A DNA stretch of 64,000 nucleotides from Gloeobacterales cyanobacterium ES-bin-313 (GTDB lineage: Bacteria; Cyanobacteriota; Cyanobacteriia; Gloeobacterales; Gloeobacteraceae), in assembly GCA_014379585.1 (NCBI GenBank), contig JACMLN010000108.1, positions 1-64,000 of the forward strand, written 5' to 3'. The first letter of the stretch is position 1. Every line of letters begins with the position of its first letter. Position numbers and translations under genes: made by a program. This document shows, piece by piece, positions 6,001 through 64,000 of this stretch. Below the pieces are notes generated by a model. The model did not search any database, was not told the origin of the DNA, and worked only from the letters and a program-made list of their open reading frames with translations.

Positions 6001-9000
6001 ATAATACTGTCAATGCTGGCAACCTCACCACCGACTCGGATGGCTCAACGCGACTTGCTGGAAATGTGGTGACGGACGGCAATCAAACCTACGGCGATGG
6101 GGTGATTCTGGACAACAGCATCGTCTTGAGCGGCAGTGATATTACTTTTAACAGTAGTTTGAACGGCAATGCAGGGAATACAAGCCTGACAGTTAGCGCT
6201 GTTAACGCAACCTTCAATGGTTTAGTGGGGAACATTACAGACCTTGGCAGCCTGAATATCAACGGCACCGGAACAACGATTTTCAATAACACGATCAGTG
6301 CGGGCAACCTCACCACTGACGCGGCTGGTTCGACACTGATTGCTGGAAATATTTCAACAAGTGGAAATCAGAACTATGGGGACGTAGCTACCCTCGGCAA
6401 TAGCGTCACACTCATAGGCGAAAACATTACTTTCGGCCAAACCCTCGATAGCAACGGCACACTCCAGAACTTCACAGGTAATGCTGGTAATATTGCTTTT
6501 AATGGAGCGGTGGGAGGCACCAGCCCTCTAGGTAATCTGACGCTCACAAGTTCTGGATCGACGACGTTCTTCAGCACTGTCAATGCAACTGCCCTAAACG
6601 CAAGCGGCACGACCCAAGTCTTCAACAATGTCACCACCAGCGGCAACCAGACCTTCAATGACAGTCTGATCTTGTTGAATCCACTTACCTTGAATAGTGG
6701 TGCGAATATTACCTTCAATGCCACAGTTAGTGTTGGGAACACGCCCGTTAGTTTAAATGCAACAGCAGCCAACGCTATCGCTATCAATAACTCGGTTAAT
6801 GCCAACGGTGTCAACTTCACAGCGGCCAGTTTGAGCAGTTCCGCATCAGGAATTATCAATGCTGCAGCAGGAAATAGCACTTTGGTCGCCGATAGTGTTG
6901 CCTTTGCCGCACCTGTGACTGGTTCTGGATTCTTGGCTATTCAGCCAAGAGATTCAGCGAGTTCAATCGGAATCGGTGGTGCAGATGGAACGCTTCAACT
7001 CTCCACTGCAACTATCGAGCAGTTCACCAATAGTTTCCAGGGAATTACCATTGGTAGCACTAATCAGAGTGGAAATATTACGGTGAACACCGTCACTTTC
7101 CTCGACCCAATCACACTGCAAACTCCGAATGGTAGCCTATTCATCAACGGTCAATTAAATGGTTTAGACAATGCTTCGATTGACTTGATCAGCTCTGACA
7201 ATACAACGGTTCTGAACGCCAATATTGTCACAGCCGGCAACCCGATTTTCTTCCGGGATAGTGTGCGGCTCGGTACTTCCGTGCTTCTCGATACAACCAA
7301 TGGCGGCAATGCGAACCAAGTTGGCAATATTACTTTCTTCAGCACTCTTGATGCGACAAATGCTGGCATTCAAGGACTAACTTTACGTACGGGTGGAGGG
7401 GATCAAACCTTCACTGGAGCCGTTGGTTCCCAGCAAGCCCTCGGCAACCTGACCATTTCCAGTGCAGCAAATGTGATTTTCAGTAGTTTTTTGCAGGCCG
7501 GAAATATTCTGCAATCTAGCGGCTCCAGTCTCACCAGCTTCAATGGTTCAGTGAATGCAACTAGTTTGAATCTCACAGGTACAGGTTTCGCATTGAATGC
7601 CCCTGTCTTGACCAGCGGCAGCGTAACAATTGCCAATAGTGGCGCTTTGAATATCAATAGTTCTTCTGCACTCTCAGTAGGCGGCGCATTTGCTCAGACC
7701 GGGAATGGAGTCACAAATTTAAGCGGAAATATTTCAACGGTTAATAGTAGCATAAGTTTCAATGGCTCAGTACTGGTGAGCGCTCCTTCGACGTTGCGTA
7801 CTAACAATAGTAATGTCTTCTTCGGAAATACCCTGAATGGCAATAACCTCTTGCCGCTTACCCCTTCTGGCAATCCAATTCCAGGAGTGGTACCGAATAG
7901 CAGTTTGACCATTTTGGCAGGCCAAGGCAACGTTACTTTCAGCAATACTGTGGGTGCTTCTTCTAGTAGCACTACCGGAAACAATGTGCCTGTTGCCACT
8001 TTCGGTGGCTCGCTTACCAGCCTTCAAGTAAGCTCTGGTAACATTAATGCAAACAATGTGAATGCTGGTCTAATAACCTTTACTGCTGCTGAAAATATTT
8101 CGACAGGAAATCTGGCGACAGGTGGTGGAGGGATCAATCTCAGTGCAGCAACAATTTCCACAGGTGCCTTAGATAGTAGTGCCTTGTCCCCGGCAACTGG
8201 AAACGCAGGTAATATTACCCTCAGTGGCAATCAGATTGTTGTTAATACTATCAACGCTCAAAGTGCAAATGGCAGGGGTGGTACCGTCGATATTACGAGT
8301 CAGACAACCTTCCGGGCAGTAGGTAGTTTCAATGATCTGAATAATCGACAGGTGAGTATCTCGACAGCCAGTGGCAGTGGTGGTGCACCAATTACGATTC
8401 GCCATTTAGGCGGTGTGTTCACGGTCGGCAATGCTGCGACCAATGGGACAGCCGCCTCAATTTCCAGTCGCGCAACCAATAGTATCGATCCAGTACGCAG
8501 TTTCCCCGGCAGTTTCACTCAGGATGATATACGGATCATCACGACTGACCAAAATATTGTCGCTATTCCAACGCCTGAAAAGATTCCAACCCCAATATTC
8601 ATCAGTCCAACTAGTTTAGGAACGATTGATACAGGCAATGTATTGCCGAAACCAGCCAATATAGAACAGTCTCGTACCGCCGAATTCGTCAACTACTTCG
8701 GTCCTAGCCTGCCTGATAACAAGCTATCTACTGCTGAAATTCAGAGTATTCTGCGCAGACTCGCCCGCGAGACCGGCAAGAAGCCCGCTATTCTCTACAT
8801 TGATGCCTTTGCCAAGCGCACAGAATTGGTGCTAGTCACACCAGATGGGGAACCGATTTTGCGGATCGTTCCCGATGCACCTCGTGAAGCGGTACTTGCA
8901 AAAGTCCGAGAGTTCCGCAATGAAGTCCTTGCTCCTAACAAGCGCAATTCCAATAGTTTCTTGGCTGCTTCTCGCCAGTTGTATCAATGGCTGATTACCC

Positions 9001-9854
9001 CCGTCGAAGGAGATCTGCGCGAACAGAAGATCGATACTTTAGTCTTCTCCCTTGATCGTGGTCTACGTCATGTTCCACTAGCAGCGCTCAACGACGGCAA
9101 GCAGTATTTAGTCGAGAAGTATGGTCTCAGCCTGATTCCAAGCATTAATTTGGTCGATACCCGCTATGGAGATGTCAAAAAAGCGCAGGTATTGGCCATG
9201 GGCGCATCGAGCTTTGACGACGACAATCCGCTTCCAGCAGTTCCTCTTGAACTGAGTGCTGTGGTTAGGGAAGTAGGTGGTGGCCGCTTCTTCTTGAACA
9301 AAGAATTTACCCTCGCCAATCTCAAGTCCCAACGCCTCGAAAAGCCGTTCGGAATTATTCACCTCGCCACCCACGCCGACTTCAATCCTGGCCCTGCCAG
9401 CGCTTCGTTCATTAAGCTCTCCGATACCCGACTTGGACTTGATCGACGCGAACTCCAGGCACTGCGTTGGAACGATCCACCTGTCGAATTGCTCGTGCTC
9501 AGTGCCTGTCGCACAGCGATTGGTGACGAGAATGCCGAACTCGGTTTTGCTGGACTGGCAGTGGGGGCTGGGGTGAAGACGGCGATTGCAAGCCTATGGT
9601 ACGCCAGCGATGAAGGCACCCTTGCTTTGATGACTGGTTTTTACGAACAGCTCAAAAATGCCCCGATCAAAGCAGAGGCCCTGCGTGCAGCGCAGATCGA
9701 CATGATCCTTGGGCGGGTTCGCATCGAGAAAGGCCAACTGATCACGCCCCAGTTAAAGACAGCGCTTCCCGACGAGCTTAAAAATCTAGGCAATGTCATC
9801 CTCACTCACCCCTACTACTGGTCAGGCTTCACGATGATCGGTAGCCCCTGGTAA
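1..9854 (+). CDS. Two-partner secretion exoprotein with C-terminal CHAT caspase-like domain (5' end outside window)
   Basis: The frame is already open at base 3, so the signal peptide and start lie to the left; the ATG at 102 is internal. The first residues (NYAALNGSPTSLALS, then GGALSVGPGQQLSLIGG) resemble the end of the filamentous-haemagglutinin secretion domain of cyanobacterial TpsA proteins. About 2,800 residues of Asn/Gly/Thr-rich repeats (GNIT, GNVT) follow, the pattern of a long beta-helix. From about 8,690 the composition changes to a charged globular domain with CHAT features: His in HLATHADF (9372-9374) and Cys in LSACRTAIG (9507-9509), and a closing segment YYWSGFTMIG. The TpsB transporter starts 7 bases after the stop. 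I infer a surface-exposed or released protein carrying a putative cysteine peptidase; its substrate is unknown. No cysteine is evident in the repeat part. Confidence 0.9.
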   Translation, partial: TANAVGFGSQWFNASGTNNYAALNGSPTSLALSMGQPGAIINGGALSVGPGQQLSLIGGTVISTGVLSGGQVNVAAVPGERYVRLGQPGNVLSIEVPVSGGNLPTNWNLPILSLPELLAGGSNSQLVVRSDGTVRLAGTASSIQPGDVVVTNAISLAAVSTQSLISATGDVTFGNYTGVSLKVEAQGSITGGNVTITGNQTATNLGGANPGDPDVAILISDPALILRAGVATLLNDVNTIPPGNITTTPGGNFSASTTATNPGNISVGNIAARNVAGAPFGGLRVILSAPGNITTQQIDAFQGQIDITSANGSITTGNLSTSANGVGLNGGNITLSALNGNITSLLINTGTNNVGNPNGGSSTAGNAGNVLITAGNNITTSSISTNSVGNSSNTGNAGNITISSSNGNIITDSLDASTNAFRSFTTPAISAGNGGTITLNATVGNIDVSTVSTTAFSADSLTGNGGNVVLTATAGNVTLNAPVIILAPINTDSLINTGTNFGAAGNVTITAGNRTNLNGNITASSLDTTRNITGGAVVFNGNVSATSGNIVVDTSGSGGGNSTGTAVGGNIVFNSGIDGAATGTNLILSSGSGNITLNGAVGNTVALNNLGINSVGTTNINSSINVGGLTTDAGGTTRLNGNITSSTDQTYNDAAFLDQDLTLRGTAGNITFNGSVTTTAGVDATVDSQSQLAINQSFTIADSSVLLSSALLATGNAGNINVGTGNLTIATNALNLGAAIAGSGTLSIRPLNPATSIGIAGAAGTLQLPNGTLSLLQNGFTSITFGSPNQTGNLAIGAVTFQDPVIFQAPGGSVNVNGVLRGIDNASFNFISSNATTILAADVITAGAPITFGNNVQLAPTNLQTITVDSTDGGNVSTGATINFAQNITGSSFGNQSLVVNAGTSAALFGGLIGSTVPLNNLTISSGAALTQAAAWNIRGNTSLVVGTANDITLGAANDFNSVFISTGNNAVLTDINNLALGNITLGGNLTVNAGGVISQAIIASTVPIPTRIVVGGNAAFTTTLGNTGNVAVTNSTATVIGNSVIGGDFILNSIGNSSQAPGTTLAVAGNLNVTSGGTNTLTNSTVGNLTLANGDVIISQVGLITLAPTAFAGNVTVNSLASGQQFNGVFGGTAIALTSATNSFGGTLSLNTANAGISNVTATPGITQSGALSVPGLATFNATQVGNITLLSPTNSFNSLAFIGNAVSITQQNAIALLTSSATGNLLLQSGNGAITQIGALTVGGTSQFTGTTIALGNTTNLLADAVSLNSVGNATLVNSSTTVLGTSVVGGDLNVTANGNLTQTGTLSVLGTANLDAGTNTFTGNAGFVGGNLSVQAGTTNLNAPISGNNTTITNSGLLTIASTATSSNTGNFIQNGAGNVSTAGTLTADSVQFNSPVFLTGTQSITANNGQVSFAGSVDGGQELTINANTLTISGTVGATTPLTNLTIATANAITQAAPWRVAGTTALNAGTSDILLGNAANDFGTVSIANANNVTLVDLNALNFGNVNVNSNLSTTAGTMTQTLGSGLTVIGDASFTTTQANTGNVAFTNSSNTGTALGNSVIGGDFSLASAGNVTQAPGSTLQVAGNVSVNAQGTATLTNPGNLLTETTFANGDVIINRVGPIILPSRVVNGNFTVNSLASGQQFNSVFTGSAIQLTNATNSIGRTLSLNTANAGIALATGTPEITQSGIQSVSGLAFFNASSVGNINVSTSTNQFGSLGFTGNNVSLGQQNQVVLVASSAASNLVLLSESSITQTGSLSIAGTSTIGGGAVVLTNPENLFTGSIALGSLTDATLFNNTDTQISLAVVQGNLAVTSAGNLALPVGGNLSIVSGGLLFQNGEVFVGSTLLLNAGANPVTVDGIITSGDLSIVGGAINLNAPLQTLIGDAIFSNSGVLTIASTAPLNIAGTFQQNGNGSVNTAGSITASSIQFNSPVFLSGSESFTATNGSVTLNSTIDGLQDLSITASNISFLGAVGSNTALGNLNLNSSGATIFNNTVNAGNLTTDSDGSTRLAGNVVTDGNQTYGDGVILDNSIVLSGSDITFNSSLNGNAGNTSLTVSAVNATFNGLVGNITDLGSLNINGTGTTIFNNTISAGNLTTDAAGSTLIAGNISTSGNQNYGDVATLGNSVTLIGENITFGQTLDSNGTLQNFTGNAGNIAFNGAVGGTSPLGNLTLTSSGSTTFFSTVNATALNASGTTQVFNNVTTSGNQTFNDSLILLNPLTLNSGANITFNATVSVGNTPVSLNATAANAIAINNSVNANGVNFTAASLSSSASGIINAAAGNSTLVADSVAFAAPVTGSGFLAIQPRDSASSIGIGGADGTLQLSTATIEQFTNSFQGITIGSTNQSGNITVNTVTFLDPITLQTPNGSLFINGQLNGLDNASIDLISSDNTTVLNANIVTAGNPIFFRDSVRLGTSVLLDTTNGGNANQVGNITFFSTLDATNAGIQGLTLRTGGGDQTFTGAVGSQQALGNLTISSAANVIFSSFLQAGNILQSSGSSLTSFNGSVNATSLNLTGTGFALNAPVLTSGSVTIANSGALNINSSSALSVGGAFAQTGNGVTNLSGNISTVNSSISFNGSVLVSAPSTLRTNNSNVFFGNTLNGNNLLPLTPSGNPIPGVVPNSSLTILAGQGNVTFSNTVGASSSSTTGNNVPVATFGGSLTSLQVSSGNINANNVNAGLITFTAAENISTGNLATGGGGINLSAATISTGALDSSALSPATGNAGNITLSGNQIVVNTINAQSANGRGGTVDITSQTTFRAVGSFNDLNNRQVSISTASGSGGAPITIRHLGGVFTVGNAATNGTAASISSRATNSIDPVRSFPGSFTQDDIRIITTDQNIVAIPTPEKIPTPIFISPTSLGTIDTGNVLPKPANIEQSRTAEFVNYFGPSLPDNKLSTAEIQSILRRLARETGKKPAILYIDAFAKRTELVLVTPDGEPILRIVPDAPREAVLAKVREFRNEVLAPNKRNSNSFLAASRQLYQWLITPVEGDLREQKIDTLVFSLDRGLRHVPLAALNDGKQYLVEKYGLSLIPSINLVDTRYGDVKKAQVLAMGASSFDDDNPLPAVPLELSAVVREVGGGRFFLNKEFTLANLKSQRLEKPFGIIHLATHADFNPGPASASFIKLSDTRLGLDRRELQALRWNDPPVELLVLSACRTAIGDENAELGFAGLAVGAGVKTAIASLWYASDEGTLALMTGFYEQLKNAPIKAEALRAAQIDMILGRVRIEKGQLITPQLKTALPDELKNLGNVILTHPYYWSGFTMIGSPW
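2695..5895 (+). repeat. Two diverged tandem copies of a ~1.6 kb segment inside the exoprotein gene
   Basis: The translation shows the same long series of landmarks twice. PLNNLTISS...LTQAAAW near 2750 recurs as PLTNLTIAT...ITQAAPW near 4330. VNSLASGQQFN near 3355 recurs near 4920. SLNTANAGI near 3450 recurs near 5020. QFNSPVFL near 4190 recurs near 5810. The offset is about 1.57-1.62 kb, so the unit is about 525-540 residues. The copies differ at many positions, so this is an old duplication. Shorter related blocks appear near 2260/6950 (SIGI..A.GTLQL) and near 1880/6010/6310 (LTTD..G.T). Confidence 0.7.
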
Positions 9855-9861
9855 GGTCACT

Positions 9862-11583
9862 ATGCAAACAAAAGCGATGGCAAAACGAACCTTTTTGATC
9901 CTGGGATGGATGCTGGCAACTGGCTTGGCAAGTTCTGCGGCGATGGCACAAACCGTTCTGCCTGGGAGTCCTCAGCAACCTGATCCAAACCGCGACCGCT
10001 TTCCACAGCAAGTACCCCTTCCCCAACCCCTTCCCAAGACCGACAAGCCCGTCTTGCCAGATCAGGCACCACCATCAACCACCTCTCCAACACAAAGTAT
10101 TACGATCCGCAGTATCAGCGTCACAGGCAACACTCTTTTCTCTAAGGATCAGATCAACAAGATCACCCAGCCTTTGATCGGCCAAAGCCTGAACCGCGAT
10201 GAAATACTCAGTAAAATTGTCGCCCCAATCACCAAGCTCTACCTCGAACAGGGCTACTTGACTTCGCGGGCCGAACTGGTCTCTTCTGAAAATGGTGACC
10301 TGCGGATTGTCATCCTCGAAGGCAGTCTTTCGCGCATTGATGTTGAAGGCGCAGATCGGCTCAATCCAGACTACATTCGCGACCGGATTAAACTCGGTGT
10401 CACCACGCCACTCAATGCCGCCAAGCTGGAAGAGCAACTACGCCTACTGCGCGCAGATCCACTCTTAGACAATATTGAGGCGAGTCTGCGTCGAGGCACA
10501 GAGGCAGCGCAAAGTATCTTAATTGTGCGCATTCAAGAGGCCAAAAATTTGCAGGTTGGCCTTTCTTTTGACAACTATTCTCCTCCCTCAGTCGGCTCAG
10601 AACGTGGTAGCGCCTTTGTGCGCTATCGCAACTTGACAGGCATTGGCGATGAAATTACAGCTGCCTACAGTGTTTCAACTGGAGCCTCCAACGTCTATGA
10701 CCTGATCTATAGAGCGCCTCTCAATCCAATGAATGGGACTTTCCAGTTGCGGATTTTGCCAAATACCTTCAAAGTCACTGACTCAAACTTTTCCGCTTTT
10801 GGTATTCGTGGCAATTCAGAACTCTACGAAGTCAGTCTGCGCCAACCGCTCCTGCGAACTCTCACCGAGGAATTTGCACTTTCGATTGCTTTCGCCATTC
10901 AAAATGGTCAGACTTTTCTCTTCAATAACATCCCAACAGCCTTCGGGATTGGCCCAAGCGCCGATGGCTTGACCCGCACCAATATCTTCAAGTTTGGCCA
11001 GGACTACCTCAGTCGCGATGAAGGTGGAGCATGGTCTTTGCGTTCTCAGTTTGCTTTAGGAGTGGGAACGCTCAACTCCACGCTCAATCAAGATCCCGTA
11101 CCTGATGGACGCTTTTTCAGTTGGTTGGGGCAGATTCAGCGTCTTCAACTGCTTAGTAACGGTGCGCTATTGCTCTTCCAAGCAGATGCGCAATTCTCCT
11201 TCGATCCCCTCCTTGCCTCCCAACAATTCGTGATTGGTGGTGGGCAATCCATCCGTGGTTTCCGCCAAAATGCCCGCCAAGGAGACAACGGTTTTCGTGC
11301 AACACTAGAAGCCCGTTTCCCCCTTGCCCGCAACGAGTCCGGTGTCCCGATCCTCCAAATTGCGCCTTTTGTCGAAGGGGGCGGCATCTGGAATGTAAAT
11401 GGCAATCCGAATATTTTGCCCGATCAACGCTATTTGGTCGGTGCGGGTCTTGGCCTCTTGTGGGAGCCGATTAAGCGGTTCAATATCCGCCTTGACTACG
11501 GCGTTCCATTGATTAACCTGGCAGACCGGGGCAGCAATTTGCAGGACAATGGCTTCTACTTCAGCTTGAATTACCAGCCTTAA
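9862..11583 (+). CDS. TpsB-type outer-membrane transporter (ShlB/FhaC/HecB family)
   Basis: This 573-residue protein has an N-terminal signal peptide (hydrophobic ILGWMLATGLASSAAMAQ), a Pro-rich linker, a POTRA segment at about residues 75-150 (ITIRSISVTGNTLFS...) and a C-terminal beta-barrel. The barrel carries the family landmark GGGQSIRGFRQN near residue 455 and ends in alternating aromatic residues (FYFSLNYQP). Such Omp85-superfamily proteins translocate their TpsA partner across the outer membrane. It starts 7 bases after the CHAT exoprotein stop, so the two form a tpsA-tpsB operon and the exoprotein is the obvious substrate. An in-frame ATG five codons later is an alternative start. Confidence 0.93.
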   Translation: MQTKAMAKRTFLILGWMLATGLASSAAMAQTVLPGSPQQPDPNRDRFPQQVPLPQPLPKTDKPVLPDQAPPSTTSPTQSITIRSISVTGNTLFSKDQINKITQPLIGQSLNRDEILSKIVAPITKLYLEQGYLTSRAELVSSENGDLRIVILEGSLSRIDVEGADRLNPDYIRDRIKLGVTTPLNAAKLEEQLRLLRADPLLDNIEASLRRGTEAAQSILIVRIQEAKNLQVGLSFDNYSPPSVGSERGSAFVRYRNLTGIGDEITAAYSVSTGASNVYDLIYRAPLNPMNGTFQLRILPNTFKVTDSNFSAFGIRGNSELYEVSLRQPLLRTLTEEFALSIAFAIQNGQTFLFNNIPTAFGIGPSADGLTRTNIFKFGQDYLSRDEGGAWSLRSQFALGVGTLNSTLNQDPVPDGRFFSWLGQIQRLQLLSNGALLLFQADAQFSFDPLLASQQFVIGGGQSIRGFRQNARQGDNGFRATLEARFPLARNESGVPILQIAPFVEGGGIWNVNGNPNILPDQRYLVGAGLGLLWEPIKRFNIRLDYGVPLINLADRGSNLQDNGFYFSLNYQP

Positions 11584-59305: not shown

Positions 59306-59506
59306 CTATTCTGGCTGTTGCTTGCGAGGCAAAGAACCAGGCACGATTTCGATCCCGCCGACGATCGCTTCGAGGTCGTCTTGGCTGAGGGGGCAAGAAA
59401 GCTCACAAAATGCATATGCTTGTCTTGAGTTTGCTCCTTGACTCAGAGTGGATGAGCGCTTAAAAACGCTCCGAAGCAGCATAGAGACAAGTGTGGGATG
59501 TTCCAT
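59306..59506 (-). CDS. 66-residue peptide with double-glycine leader motif
   Basis: From the ATG at 59506 (AGGA 7 bases before it) the product is 66 residues. The segment CPLSQDDLEAIVGG at residues 38-51 has the LSxxxLExIxGG form of leaders cut by C39 peptidase transporters. Cleavage would release the 15-residue core IEIVPGSLPRKQQPE. There is no signal peptide. The core lacks Cys, Thr and Trp, so lanthionine-type changes are unlikely. It follows the HEXXH gene by 36 bases on the same strand. A TTG two codons upstream is an alternative start. Confidence 0.6.
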   Translation of the reverse strand: MEHPTLVSMLLRSVFKRSSTLSQGANSRQAYAFCELSCPLSQDDLEAIVGGIEIVPGSLPRKQQPE

Positions 59507-59542
59507 GATCAAATCCTTTTTACTTTCAGTCTTACACTCAAT

Positions 59543-60730
59543 TTATTCCCCATGAGGCGCAAAGTGTAGGTCAATTTTTGGCTTCAGTTGTCTACAATTT
59601 GCTACTCTCGATAATGCCTGTTCAAAGCGCCGAAACGCTTCTTGTGAAGCAAGTTCTTCAATGGTCAAAAGACTGAGAGCAAGCAACTTTTCGAAGGCAG
59701 GGAGTTTGCGGGTATGGCGGTCATGATCTTCAATATATTCGAGGTTGTGGGCAGCATCGAATACGAGCGCTTGTAAGATTGCAAAAGCAGGGTCGCTGAG
59801 GCTGGGTTTGCCACGATAATTCTCAAGGCGACCACCTAAGCGGTAGGCCGGAAATTCGGCAAGGCCAACAAACTGTAAAAACCAATTTGCGCGATATCTT
59901 CCAGACACAGACAAGATTCCCATGTAGTCAGCCAGAAATTCATCAAAGAGATTATTGCGCATCGAACCGAAGAGTCTGCGGGTAAAGTAGTGGGTACATT
60001 CGTGCTCTAAACGAATCGTGGCAGATGTTGCTAGCCAGTCTTCTGGCTGTAAATCAAGTGCTTCGGCTGGGATCCCACTATAGGAACCTTCACTGAGCAA
60101 AATGAAACAATCTTGGTAGAGTTCTTTGTGTGGCAGAATTTGATGCCACACTTGTTTCCAGGTTTCGTTTTCGCCGGGCAATTCGCACCAGGCGTGATGC
60201 ATCCGCCAAATACGATCCCAATTATTAAATCCAGCGACCATGCAGGCACCCATGGAGTTAGGCACCGTGGTCGGTTCGTTGTAGCGGGTCAATGCCTGTA
60301 CTAAGGAGACAAAATCGCGGCGGTGTGGAGCGATCAACACGGGAATTTCGCCAGCCAAACTGGGATGAATCAACAGCTTGAGCACTTCGGGTTGTTCCAG
60401 CATCAACCCCTGGGGCCAACGTCCCTCCTGGGGCCAGACCCCTTGACTGACGGCGGCTCGGTAGCTCACTTCACTACTGATGCCCGACAAAATTGGAAAC
60501 TGAAACTGGATAAAATAGCGCTTGAGTACAGCAAATACACTGGTTTGCTCCGCTTCTTCGCGGTAACTTTTCCAGATGCTGAGGTGGGGCTCTGCTGGTA
60601 GAGGGAGATCGAGGGGAAGTTCTAGCCACCCACAGTGAAAGGGGTTGGCGTTGTATTTAAGCAACTCGGGCAGGGAGAGATCGTCGGCTCCGTAGCTTTT
60701 GAGAACGCGGGTACGAAAGGGTATTTGCAT
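59543..60730 (-). CDS. HEXXH-motif protein, possible metallopeptidase
   Basis: This is a 395-residue soluble protein without a signal peptide. It has HECTH at residues 243-247 (bases 59990-60004) followed 17 residues later by EFLADYMG. This HEXXH...E..AD spacing suggests a zinc site with a third Glu ligand, as in gluzincin-type peptidases. The N-terminal 200 residues contain many Trp and Pro and several Cys; I do not recognise the domain. Its ATG overlaps the tolC-like stop as TGATG, so it is translated from the same message. It could process or modify the peptide encoded next. The family should be treated as unassigned. Confidence 0.72.
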   Translation of the reverse strand: MQIPFRTRVLKSYGADDLSLPELLKYNANPFHCGWLELPLDLPLPAEPHLSIWKSYREEAEQTSVFAVLKRYFIQFQFPILSGISSEVSYRAAVSQGVWPQEGRWPQGLMLEQPEVLKLLIHPSLAGEIPVLIAPHRRDFVSLVQALTRYNEPTTVPNSMGACMVAGFNNWDRIWRMHHAWCELPGENETWKQVWHQILPHKELYQDCFILLSEGSYSGIPAEALDLQPEDWLATSATIRLEHECTHYFTRRLFGSMRNNLFDEFLADYMGILSVSGRYRANWFLQFVGLAEFPAYRLGGRLENYRGKPSLSDPAFAILQALVFDAAHNLEYIEDHDRHTRKLPAFEKLLALSLLTIEELASQEAFRRFEQALSRVANCRQLKPKIDLHFAPHGE

Positions 60731-62163
60731 CAGAGGCTTCCTGTCGCTTGGCGCAGATCTGCATAGGACTGGTTGTACTGCAAAGTCGTGGCAAGCAAGG
60801 CACCACGCGCTTGGGTCAGGTCAGCCTGGGCACCGAGTACCTCAAGTTGGGTGGCAACACCGACACGAAAGCGCATCCGTGCATAGTCAAGGGCAAGGCT
60901 CGCTTGTTGCAGGGCTTCTTGACCGAGGCGGATTTGTTGGCTGGCTGCCTGCATTCGTTCGTAGCTCTGTTCTACCTGAAAGCGGAGGCTATTTGTCTGA
61001 CGAATGTAGTCCAGCCTTGCTAGATTTGCTTCTGCCTCAGCCGACCGAGCCGAGGCCCAGGCGACGCCTCCGTCAGTTAAAGGAACACTGACTTGAAAGC
61101 CGACTGTCGTTGTCAAGGTGCGATCCGCAAGCTGCAGGGTGCTGGGAATGCCATCACCGGCGTAGTTGGTGATCGATGTGCCAAATTGCAGGGTATTGTC
61201 GTAGCCAAGGCTGCTGATCAACTGCACTTGGGGGCCGAGTTGCGCCAACGCTGCGTTGCCTTGGGCGAGGGCTTGCTGCTCGCGGCTAACCGCCTGGGTG
61301 AGTTCTACTCGGTTGTTGAGGGCTTGGAAGATCGTCTCTTCAAGACTGAACAGCCAAGGGGTAGAGGCCGCGATCCCATCTCGTGCGCTCAGTTCTGTGG
61401 GAACTGCAAAATTAAGATAGCGGGCGAGATCCCGCTGGGCGACCACTTTAAGACTGCGTGCGTCGAGCACACCCTGCTGGGCTTTGAGCACCTGCACTTG
61501 GGCACGAAGGACTTCAAACTGGGTCTGAACCCTCGCTTTTGCGAGTTTCTCGGTATCTTGAAGGGTTTCTTTGCTACTCGCTAGGGTTAGTTTGGCGATT
61601 TCAAGCTGGCTTTGCGCTTTTTGCAGGGCAATGTAGGCACGGGTCACGTCTATTTTTAAAAGTTGGATCTGGCGCTCTACTTCGAGGGTGGAGACCTGGA
61701 GACCCGCCGTTGCGGCCTCAAGCTGAGACTGTACCAGCCCCGAAGAAAAGAGCGTCCAATTGCTACGCAGTGTCATCGAAGGAAGCGCTGAACTCCACCT
61801 CAAACTGCTGTTCGTGTAGTCGGTGCCAATTTGATCTTTACTCGTCAAAGCAGAATTTACGTTTAACAGAAAGTTGACAGTGGGCAACAGTTTCGCCTGG
61901 ACGATGCGCAGACTCTCCTCGGCCATCTGACTGCGCAGACGGGCTGCATAGAGATCTGGATTGCGTTGGAGTGCCTGGTTGATCGCCTCGTCTAAGGAAA
62001 TCGCCTGAGTCACCTGGGTGCGCAGGTCGAAGGCAGTGGTGGGTTTACTCGGTGCTAGCAGCGAAAGGGGCTGTCCCCCAGCAAGAGTTTCTGCTCTGGC
62101 CGATGGGAGAACCCCAATCCAGGCAATACCCAATAGAAAATAAACTGAAAAATGGGGAGACAT
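60730..62163 (-). CDS. TolC family outer-membrane efflux protein
   Basis: The 477-residue protein has a signal peptide ending ARA near residue 24, then SLDEAINQALQRNPDLYAARL at about 55, which is typical of TolC. Two long helical repeats follow (LKIDVTRAYIALQKAQSQLEIAK and FQVEQSYERMQAASQQIRLGQEAL). It forms an outer-membrane exit duct with an inner-membrane pump, but no HlyD or ABC gene is adjacent. GAGG precedes the ATG by 7 bases. The HEXXH gene is coupled to it. Confidence 0.93.
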   Translation of the reverse strand: MSPHFSVYFLLGIAWIGVLPSARAETLAGGQPLSLLAPSKPTTAFDLRTQVTQAISLDEAINQALQRNPDLYAARLRSQMAEESLRIVQAKLLPTVNFLLNVNSALTSKDQIGTDYTNSSLRWSSALPSMTLRSNWTLFSSGLVQSQLEAATAGLQVSTLEVERQIQLLKIDVTRAYIALQKAQSQLEIAKLTLASSKETLQDTEKLAKARVQTQFEVLRAQVQVLKAQQGVLDARSLKVVAQRDLARYLNFAVPTELSARDGIAASTPWLFSLEETIFQALNNRVELTQAVSREQQALAQGNAALAQLGPQVQLISSLGYDNTLQFGTSITNYAGDGIPSTLQLADRTLTTTVGFQVSVPLTDGGVAWASARSAEAEANLARLDYIRQTNSLRFQVEQSYERMQAASQQIRLGQEALQQASLALDYARMRFRVGVATQLEVLGAQADLTQARGALLATTLQYNQSYADLRQATGSL

Positions 62164-62261
62164 AGTGCAACCTCAAGAGGAGATGTTAGCTCTCTTCTAC
62201 GGAGAAGAAGAAACATCCGGTTGCGGCAATTGTAAAGGTCAGCTCTGGGTGCACAGTTGGA

Positions 62262-63155
62262 TCATCTTTCGCCAATCTGGGATGGCCTATTGTCTGTGTG
62301 GTGGGCACGATAAGCTTTTGGGGAAAGACCAACTTTTTGACGAAATCGCTTAGTGAAGTAGGCCGCATCTTCGAAGCCGACCCGGCTGGCAATTTCATTG
62401 ATGGAAAGCTCCGTATGTAAAAGCAACTGCGAAGATTTTTCGAGGCGCTTTTCGGTGAGCAGATCGACAAACGTTTTGCCCGTCTCGCGCTTGAGGAGAT
62501 GGGCAAGGTGGCAAGAAGATAAATAGAGTTGGCCAGCAGCTTCTTCGAGGCTAAGTTTTTGATGGAATCCTTCGTCGATCAGACGCAAAGTACGTACGAG
62601 GACTTCTTTTTTGCGGGCAGTTGGCACAGTTTGGGGCATCAAATTCTGGATTACCTCGGCGTGGGAACGAAAGGCATGACCAATCAAGATCGTCAGCAAG
62701 GCGCGCTGGATATCCTGGGCACAGGGGCAGTGGTTGTTTTTTTCTTGGAGCAACGTCAAACAAAGTTGTTCGATCTGGAGGGCAAGTTCTGGCTTCAGGT
62801 GGAATTGCAGCTGTTTTTGCAGGGCAAAGGGAGCAAGTAGGGGCAAGCGGTAGGGGTCGTGGTCAGCTGCAACGCTGGAGGTTGGGGGTAAAAATTTAAG
62901 GTCGAAAGTGATGATAAAAAACTGGCTGCCTTGATGCGCCTGTAGACAGTGCAAAGTCTGGGGAGCAATGAAGTAAAGACTTCCCGGTTGCAGCAAAAAT
63001 GTGTGGGTGCCGATCTGATGCGTGCCACTGCCAGCATGGAAGTAGAGAATTTCTAGGTCTTGGTGGGCGTGGGCAGTAAAGGACTTGCCCTGTTCGTTGT
63101 TCGTCTGAATATCAAAGTGTGACTTAGGGGAAACACAGGGAGAGCTAAATACCAT
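62262..63155 (-). CDS. AraC family transcriptional regulator
   Basis: From the ATG at 63155 (AGGTG 5 bases before it) the product is 297 residues. The N-terminal cupin sensor domain contains HAHQDLEILYFHAGSGTHQIGTH (near residue 28) and PGSLYFIAPQTLHCL. The C-terminal double helix-turn-helix starts near 195 (KLSLEEAAGQLYLSSCHLAHLLKRETGKTF) and has INEIASRVGFEDAAYFTKRFRQKVGLSPKAYR. It is likely to control neighbouring genes in response to a small molecule. It lies 98 bases upstream of the TolC gene and 22 bases after the dehydrogenase stop. Confidence 0.9.
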   Translation of the reverse strand: MVFSSPCVSPKSHFDIQTNNEQGKSFTAHAHQDLEILYFHAGSGTHQIGTHTFLLQPGSLYFIAPQTLHCLQAHQGSQFFIITFDLKFLPPTSSVAADHDPYRLPLLAPFALQKQLQFHLKPELALQIEQLCLTLLQEKNNHCPCAQDIQRALLTILIGHAFRSHAEVIQNLMPQTVPTARKKEVLVRTLRLIDEGFHQKLSLEEAAGQLYLSSCHLAHLLKRETGKTFVDLLTEKRLEKSSQLLLHTELSINEIASRVGFEDAAYFTKRFRQKVGLSPKAYRAHHTDNRPSQIGER

Positions 63156-63177
63156 CGCAACACCTGAGGAGAGAGAA

Positions 63178-64000
63178 TTAAGACGCAGACAGTTGTTCGA
63201 TCCAAGTCGGAACCAACACGACTTCGCCAAAAGTTGCCTGTGCGGCAATTAAATCGTGGGCAATCTGGATGTATTGGAGGGGAAGAACCAGGCTAATTGC
63301 AGCCTGGAAGGTTCGTGCTGCCAGAAGGTGCAAAATCTGGTCAAAGTCCTCAGCAGCAATGCTCTGCAAGGCTCCACTGATCGATCCATTCTTTTGAATC
63401 AAGTCCAGGACATTGATCGTTGCCCATCGACTATCAAGGCAGCCTGCACAGACAATCCGGCCACCTGCACTGAGCATATCGATGGAGCTTTGCAGGCAAT
63501 GGTGACCGACAAGATCTAGAACTAGCGTTGCACCAAGTCCCTGGGTGGCCTCCATCACCAAAGGCACCAGATTCGTCTCAGCAGGATCGATGACGGTGTT
63601 TGCCCCTAAAGATCGCAGGGCATCGGCCTTGGCAGGATTGGCGACAGCGACCGTCATTGCCCCGCACCAGTGGGCAATTTGGAGCGCAGAAGTCCCAACG
63701 CCACTGGAGGCAGCCCAGACCACCACACGTTCTGTCTCCGCCTGCAATTTCCCTTTATAAAACAGAGCACTCCAAGCCGTGCAGAAAGCTAATCCCGCAC
63801 TAGCGGCGCGGATATAGTCCAAGTCAGGGGGAATGCGACGCAGATAGCGGGTCGGCAGAGCAATAAATTCAGCGTAGGTACCTTGGTGGATATGGTCAAA
63901 TTCACCGAAGGCCGCGACGATCCGCTCGCCGATCTGCCAACCCTGCACCGCTTTGCCAACCTCAACAGTTGACTGTGGTCGCATGGATGCGTACCAGTAC
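63178..64000 (-). CDS. Zinc-type alcohol dehydrogenase/quinone oxidoreductase family protein (5' end outside window)
   Basis: The frame is open to the right edge (the upstream codons read YWYAS), so the start and the first catalytic residues are missing. The visible 274 residues have STVEVGKAVQGWQIGERIVA, GTYAEFIALP, AASAGLAFCTAWSALF, the Rossmann motif WAASSGVGTSALQIA (near 63700) and VLDLVGHHCLQSSIDML. This is the QOR-like branch of the medium-chain dehydrogenases. Substrate is unknown. It is the first visible gene of the minus-strand run that includes the AraC regulator. Confidence 0.85.
   Translation of the reverse strand, partial: YWYASMRPQSTVEVGKAVQGWQIGERIVAAFGEFDHIHQGTYAEFIALPTRYLRRIPPDLDYIRAASAGLAFCTAWSALFYKGKLQAETERVVVWAASSGVGTSALQIAHWCGAMTVAVANPAKADALRSLGANTVIDPAETNLVPLVMEATQGLGATLVLDLVGHHCLQSSIDMLSAGGRIVCAGCLDSRWATINVLDLIQKNGSISGALQSIAAEDFDQILHLLAARTFQAAISLVLPLQYIQIAHDLIAAQATFGEVVLVPTWIEQLSAS

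Follow-up and report, generated by a model that had tools for sequence, protein, structure and literature searches.

A TolC–DUF7005–peptide operon in a Gloeobacterales cyanobacterium as a probable satellite of an NHLP-type RiPP export system

The closest described relative of the locus discussed here is the NHLP/Nif11 export system for ribosomally synthesized and post-translationally modified peptides (RiPPs), which was described by Haft, Basu and Mitchell in 2010 (PMC2887384) and comprises an HlyD protein (TIGR03794), an ABC transporter with a C39 peptidase (TIGR03796, C39-ABC1) and a second ABC protein (TIGR03797, ABC2). Our subject is a block of three consecutive minus-strand genes at positions 59306 to 62163 of a 64,000-nucleotide stretch of DNA (contig JACMLN010000108.1, positions 1 to 64,000; hereafter the window) from Gloeobacterales cyanobacterium ES-bin-313. 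The genes encode a TolC-family outer-membrane duct, a protein of the family DUF7005 with an HEXXH motif, and a 66-residue peptide with a double-glycine (GG) leader; together they very probably constitute a satellite operon, an outlying part of an NHLP-type RiPP system. What appears to be new is that a known exporter has a widespread, functionally unassigned partner protein—here encoded in a separate TolC–DUF7005–peptide operon.

Tripartite type 1 secretion uses TolC, HlyD and ABC parts, all of which are found in this genome; in contrast, the parts lie here on two contigs, and there are two ABC proteins, one of them with a C39 domain. To our knowledge, DUF7005 is no part of type 1 secretion. 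The NHLP/Nif11 system is matched more fully, in that all three exporter genes are present in the genome and the neighbours of DUF7005 include GG precursors as well as radical SAM or LanM enzymes; the locus differs in having TolC and DUF7005 on another contig than the exporter, and in a window peptide whose leader is of neither the Nif11 nor the NHLP kind. A further parallel is RiPP processing in two steps, in which a C39 transporter is joined by a second protease such as the M61 metalloprotease MfuP (PMC10885120)—a C39 transporter and a putative metallopeptidase in one system—but DUF7005 matches no Pfam or NCBIfam peptidase family and no solved fold. Finally, the alpha-ketoglutarate-dependent HEXXH enzymes (TIGR04267/IPR026337; ChlH, BpmH, PflC and PosC; PMC12636437) are likewise HEXXH proteins in a RiPP context; however, DUF7005 fails their family model and travels with the exporter instead of with one modification type. 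An earlier reading of the window from its sequence only (the sequence-only reading) knew of no described system with this gene set: the exporter proved to be the described NHLP system, whereas the place of DUF7005 in that system is, as far as we found, undescribed. In a text search of PMC2887384, neither HEXXH nor TolC nor cyclic nucleotide turned up.

The operon and the exporter of this genome

The open reading frames (ORFs), overlap, spacing and metal site that the sequence-only reading had described were all recovered. The TolC gene (60730..62163, minus strand; 477 residues) encodes two OEP domains (PF02321, E 1.6e-56 over two stretches; the match to TIGR01844, at E 5e-36, is under its cut-off). 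Its TGA stop codon shares bases with the ATG of the DUF7005 gene (59543..60730, minus strand; 395 residues) (...CTCTGATGCAA...). From the stop of the DUF7005 gene to the ATG of the peptide gene (59306..59506, minus strand; ATG at 59506, stop codon ending at 59306) there are 36 bases. The HEXXH protein is a full-length DUF7005 member (PF22541), covering profile positions 2-361 of 361 at E 7.2e-139 and 463 bits against a gathering cut-off of 27, and is a likely metal-dependent enzyme; it matches no NCBIfam model. The family has no described function, and our literature search found no paper naming it. This is the one DUF7005 gene above cut-off in the genome; a DUF7005-like match on contig C165 (21.5 bits, below cut-off) was not accepted as a second member.

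As the sequence-only reading had observed, no HlyD or C39-ABC gene adjoins the three genes. The window as a whole has no C39 gene. The sole C39 domain of the genome is found on another contig, C136, where the three exporter genes are adjacent and all above cut-off: TIGR03796 C39-ABC1 at 1113.6 bits, TIGR03797 ABC2 at 925.6 and TIGR03794 HlyD at 313.2. Only matches above cut-off were counted for TIGR03796; below it, genome scans with this model are uninformative because all ABC exporters match. This single set is the kind of unlinked pump that the sequence-only reading had offered as one alternative, and C136 is probably one locus with C116, the contig of the window.

The argument for that join lies at the contig ends. 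C116 extends to 72045, and both it and C136 end inside the same GG-precursor array, as a repeat-broken assembly would leave them; the five precursor copies or fragments in the genome are confined to these two ends, and the contig orientations would allow C136 to run on into C116 in reverse. On the part of C116 beyond the window (stretch L086, 65997-71964), all on the minus strand, are an M1-like protein (65997-67352), a protein weakly like the alpha-ketoglutarate HExxH hydroxylases (67400-69028; TIGR04267 at 31.5 bits, under its cut-off of 40), a 359-residue protein (69042-70121), a radical SAM enzyme of RiPP maturase type (70217-71230) and two GG precursors (71.5-72.0 kb) with the leader end DDDLEGVAGG and CFC in the core. 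Five Nostocales loci (L020, L028, L034, L044 and L051) have, near DUF7005, enzymes with which this radical SAM enzyme shares 57-60% identity, and the 359-residue protein is 31-34% like a neighbour of the radical SAM enzyme in two of them (L028 and L034); thus the same cassette accompanies DUF7005 here and in Nostocales.

DUF7005 in other genomes

In a sample of 242 genomes drawn evenly from the cyanobacterial class, DUF7005 was present in 16 and the NHLP HlyD protein (TIGR03794) in 56, the latter occurring in 16/16 genomes with DUF7005 versus 40/226 others. The Fisher p value of 1e-11 is overstated since the genomes are related, but the 16 span seven families, and in most of them HlyD lies within a few kb of DUF7005. 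Class-level relatives of the source genome carry the cyanobacterial type of NHLP cluster. Three divergent DUF7005 members of about 80 bits (G071:C39:164579-165433, G184:C1:1399475-1400215 and G233:C1:712305-713138) come from genomes of 2.4-2.6 Mb in one cyanobacterial family, where the NHLP HlyD gene is present and unlinked.

A C39 peptidase was found in 24/24 further DUF7005 genomes, most of which were picked for having no exporter near the gene, and in 25/25 when the source genome is counted; four Oscillospiraceae genomes with DUF7005, of 1.0-1.2 Mb, have exactly one C39 peptidase each. These counts bear on a suggestion of the sequence-only reading, that the HEXXH protein itself does the cleaving; it would then cut at the GG instead of C39, and the peptide would leave through TolC and some other inner-membrane pump. 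A window without a C39 gene would suit this suggestion, as would small Oscillospiraceae genomes that pair DUF7005 directly with GG peptides and have no local ABC gene; however, with a C39 peptidase in every DUF7005 genome checked, the source genome and those four Oscillospiraceae included, such cleavage is not needed, and we consider it highly improbable.

Across 84,980 species genomes we found 76 DUF7005 loci, mostly from Nostocales and other cyanobacteria, with further loci in Acidobacteriota, Chloroflexota, Spirochaetota, Bacteroidota and Clostridia. We clustered the neighbours within about 6 kb of DUF7005 and confirmed identities for representatives with Pfam. Exporter-type ABC genes are found in 41/76 loci, HlyD in 31/76, cyclic nucleotide (cNMP)-binding proteins in 34/76 and ParA-like ATPases in 33/76; LanM or radical SAM enzymes occur in 32/76. 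GG-leader ORFs lie near DUF7005 in 38/76 loci, versus 1/76 after shuffling, so that homologues of the HEXXH gene are far from being always apart from such peptides, which the sequence-only reading had named as an outcome that would count against it. We clustered 44 of the GG peptides; the leader model for Nif11 is matched by 30 and that for NHLP by 15. Taken with the co-occurrence counts, these neighbourhoods support well the core guess of that reading, a cassette for peptide maturation and export.

Peptide and DUF7005 are also paired in Clostridia-type loci, of which there are 13 (L071-L084 minus L082, where no DUF7005 ORF was called). In 10/13 of these the gene immediately upstream of DUF7005 encodes a GG peptide, at a distance of up to 300 bases; in L078 and L079 the two overlap by 4 bases. 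In four loci (L071, L073, L077 and L081) no exporter gene was seen nearby, as in the window. GG peptide and DUF7005 are thus a recurrent pair.

Three side observations concern these neighbourhoods. Clostridial loci L072, L078 and L079 have arrays of about 10 Nif11-type GG peptides with strongly variable cores immediately upstream of DUF7005. Locus L049 carries, about 1.1 kb downstream of DUF7005, an array of short-leader GG peptides of the LSEQDLDSVAGG type (8247-10900, minus strand) that falls outside the Nif11 and NHLP clusters. In cyanobacteria, a membrane-like protein of about 865 residues with no Pfam match is encoded upstream of ParA–DUF7005 (L026, 2131-4749, and 21 further loci).

DUF7005 as a candidate metal enzyme

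The HEXXH motif of the window protein, H243-E244-C-T-H247 (59990..60004, minus strand), lies inside model helix 229-254, and E264-F-L-A-D268 (59927..59941, minus strand) lies in model helix 261-276; E264 is a candidate third metal ligand at a gluzincin-like spacing. We aligned 47 members, all of them PF22541. H243, E244, H247, E264, A267, D268, R240, R301 and Y305 are invariant in 47/47, so the HEXXH plus ExxAD signature is kept throughout and across phyla; the further invariant polar residues are R240, Y217, S218, R301 and Y305. None of the 47 has a credible match to a peptidase family in Pfam or NCBIfam.

The AlphaFold2 model of the window protein (pLDDT 93.5, pTM 0.91) places strands 118-122, 129-134, 162-169 and 206-213 ahead of the HEXXH helix, and a compact relative of 288 residues gives the same picture (pLDDT 94.1). 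HEXXH followed by a Glu in the next helix, the hallmark of gluzincins, is found in both sequence and model; the helix and strand order and the spacing are gluzincin-like in these models, and a zincin fold is a tentative assignment. Foldseek searches of both models against the PDB count against this assignment, as they gave no match at E <= 0.001 and noise only; an M1 aminopeptidase surfaces solely at E 5.2 (TMq 0.29). The DUF7005 profile likewise found nothing relevant among PDB sequences, the best match being a ciliary protein at E 0.079. Because no solved fold resembles either model, the label zincin-like rests on the motif and the helix and strand order. By eye, no signal peptide is evident, and DUF7005 would therefore be cytosolic, on the same side as the C39 domain.

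From gene content, the invariant metal-site signature, exporter co-occurrence and the recurrent neighbourhood, all of which are observed, we tentatively propose that DUF7005 is a metal-dependent peptidase whose targets are GG precursors or leaders, with metal binding, substrate and reaction each putative. In the scheme that follows, short GG-leader precursors (arrays at 71.5-72.0 kb on C116 and at the end of C136) would first be modified by the radical SAM enzyme. ABC1, with its C39 peptidase, and ABC2 make up the NHLP transporter, which would cut after the GG and export the core through HlyD and TolC. DUF7005, as a zincin-like metal enzyme of the cytosol, would take the GG precursor or the freed leader as its substrate, in a second trimming or in leader clearance. 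Because DUF7005 accompanies varied modification enzymes as well as exporter genes, a general handling step is likelier than one specific modification.

An oxidative role is the main competitor to a peptidase. The HEXXH site could hydroxylate or oxidatively cleave the precursor, in the manner of the alpha-ketoglutarate- and iron-dependent ChlH, PflC and PosC: characterized RiPP HEXXH enzymes with a zincin-like fold proved to be 2-oxoglutarate oxygenases (PMC12636437), and the invariant R240, Y217, S218, R301 and Y305 of DUF7005 could hold a co-substrate. However, TIGR04267 is matched by 0/47 DUF7005 members, and an hhalign comparison with the TIGR04267-like protein encoded on C116, using a template of two sequences, was null (probability 0.2%). 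DUF7005 also accompanies unrelated modification types—LanM and several kinds of radical SAM enzyme—and arrays with no modification enzyme at all, and it sits among exporter genes. We regard oxidative tailoring as unlikely.

For the family as a whole, it is quite possible that DUF7005 is a new class of metal enzyme whose fold the PDB lacks and whose targets are double-glycine RiPP precursors or their leaders. Such an enzyme would have travelled with NHLP-type exporters into cyanobacteria, Chloroflexota, Acidobacteriota, Bacteroidota and Clostridia.

The peptide, the duct and the surrounding contigs

The 66-residue peptide is a candidate precursor with a leader of 51 residues and a core of 15 (IEIVPGSLPRKQQPE); a AAAAAGGA element stands 7 bases ahead of its ATG. 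By direct reading, the leader ends in a C39-type cleavage motif, LSQDDLEAIVGG (59354..59389, minus strand), whose hydrophobic residues at -4, -7 and -12 and terminal GG fit the C39 substrate consensus (GG at -2/-1 and hydrophobic residues at those positions), as reviewed in PMC10885120. A GG-leader regular expression found exactly one ORF in the window versus one match in total in 20 Markov shuffles, and this sole ORF sits directly beside the sole DUF7005 gene of the genome. Most likely, the peptide is among the substrates of the exporter. For TolC, the gene order ParA–TolC–DUF7005–cNMP–HlyD–ABC1–ABC2, with the exporter cluster intact, is found in four other genomes (G049, G114, G155 and G196), with TolC divergent from DUF7005; we infer that the window TolC serves the NHLP pump of C136. 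Overall, the best explanation is a satellite operon in which DUF7005 is a cytosolic metal enzyme acting on the GG precursor or leader and the peptide is an exporter substrate, and we put this combination somewhat above even chances.

Several observations weigh against this combination. The peptide matches no Pfam or NCBIfam model and has neither a Nif11 (TIGR03798) nor an NHLP (TIGR03793) leader; TIGR03798 has no match anywhere in the genome. No credible homologue was found in 58 other genomes, where the matches are at chance level and most have internal stops, so that the peptide frame, whose conservation in relatives the sequence-only reading had wanted to see, is not conserved; this counts against the window peptide and not against the DUF7005 association. 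Of the possible frames, the stated one has the best codon usage, but an equally high score is reached by 17% of spurious ORFs that lie within other genes. The orphan peptide may be a relic, or a substrate of minor importance. A tree groups the window TolC with two paralogues from its own genome (support 88/97), apart from other NHLP-locus TolCs, and the TolC–DUF7005 adjacency may therefore have arisen more than once; orthology to the other NHLP TolCs is not claimed, as the phylogeny gave no tie. The genome has several other OEP genes, and the join of C136 and C116 is drawn from the shared broken repeat, with no direct overlap seen. Lastly, 40/56 cyanobacteria with TIGR03794 are without DUF7005, which is thus not essential to the exporter. 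That absence, with the links to ParA-like and cNMP-binding genes, would suit a DUF7005 that works with the exporter without catalysis, in regulation or self-protection; however, its catalytic-type residues are invariant in 47/47 members across phyla, which makes such a role improbable.

The surroundings of the operon raise another possibility, that TolC, DUF7005 and the peptide are chance neighbours left by transposon or duplication shuffling, the peptide frame being spurious or a relic. What look by eye like transposase remnants separate the block from the radical SAM cassette, and part of the neighbourhood is duplicated. Directly upstream of TolC is an AraC-family gene (62262..63155, minus strand; PF12833 and PF02311), a possible regulator of the block, preceded by a zinc-type dehydrogenase/quinone oxidoreductase gene (ADH; 63178..64000, minus strand; PF00107, E 1e-21) that continues beyond the window end and has a paralogue on C136. 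The ADH–AraC block (window 62128-63966) recurs on C136 (L085 15029-16868) at 75.8% nucleotide identity over 1844 bases; there it adjoins the NHLP exporter, on the opposite strand, and is followed by a 12-residue stub of the TolC start and then by GG precursors up to the contig end. The C136 block appears to be a duplicate from which TolC and DUF7005 were lost. Such shuffling, together with an orphan peptide of weak codon bias, would fit chance neighbours; however, TolC and DUF7005 overlap, the peptide follows 36 bases on with its own AAAAAGGA element, the only GG-leader ORF in 64 kb stands beside the one DUF7005 gene of the genome, and the TolC–DUF7005 adjacency recurs inside exporter clusters. 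We consider a chance arrangement quite unlikely. Scanning for promoters and terminators gave no more than chance would. A gene for a beta-lactamase-type domain (PF13354) fused to a golvesin C-terminal domain (PF25275; 57794-59227, plus strand) converges on the peptide gene.

The satellite operon also indicates an outer-membrane duct as an exporter part, one not found by text search in the 2010 description (PMC2887384). If DUF7005 is an enzyme acting on GG precursors, an unrecognized maturation step would exist in a large and much-mined group of RiPPs, and the family would serve as a marker for precursors missed by existing leader models, such as the window peptide. DUF7005, a widespread family of no described function, gains a clear context, and its role is now directly testable.

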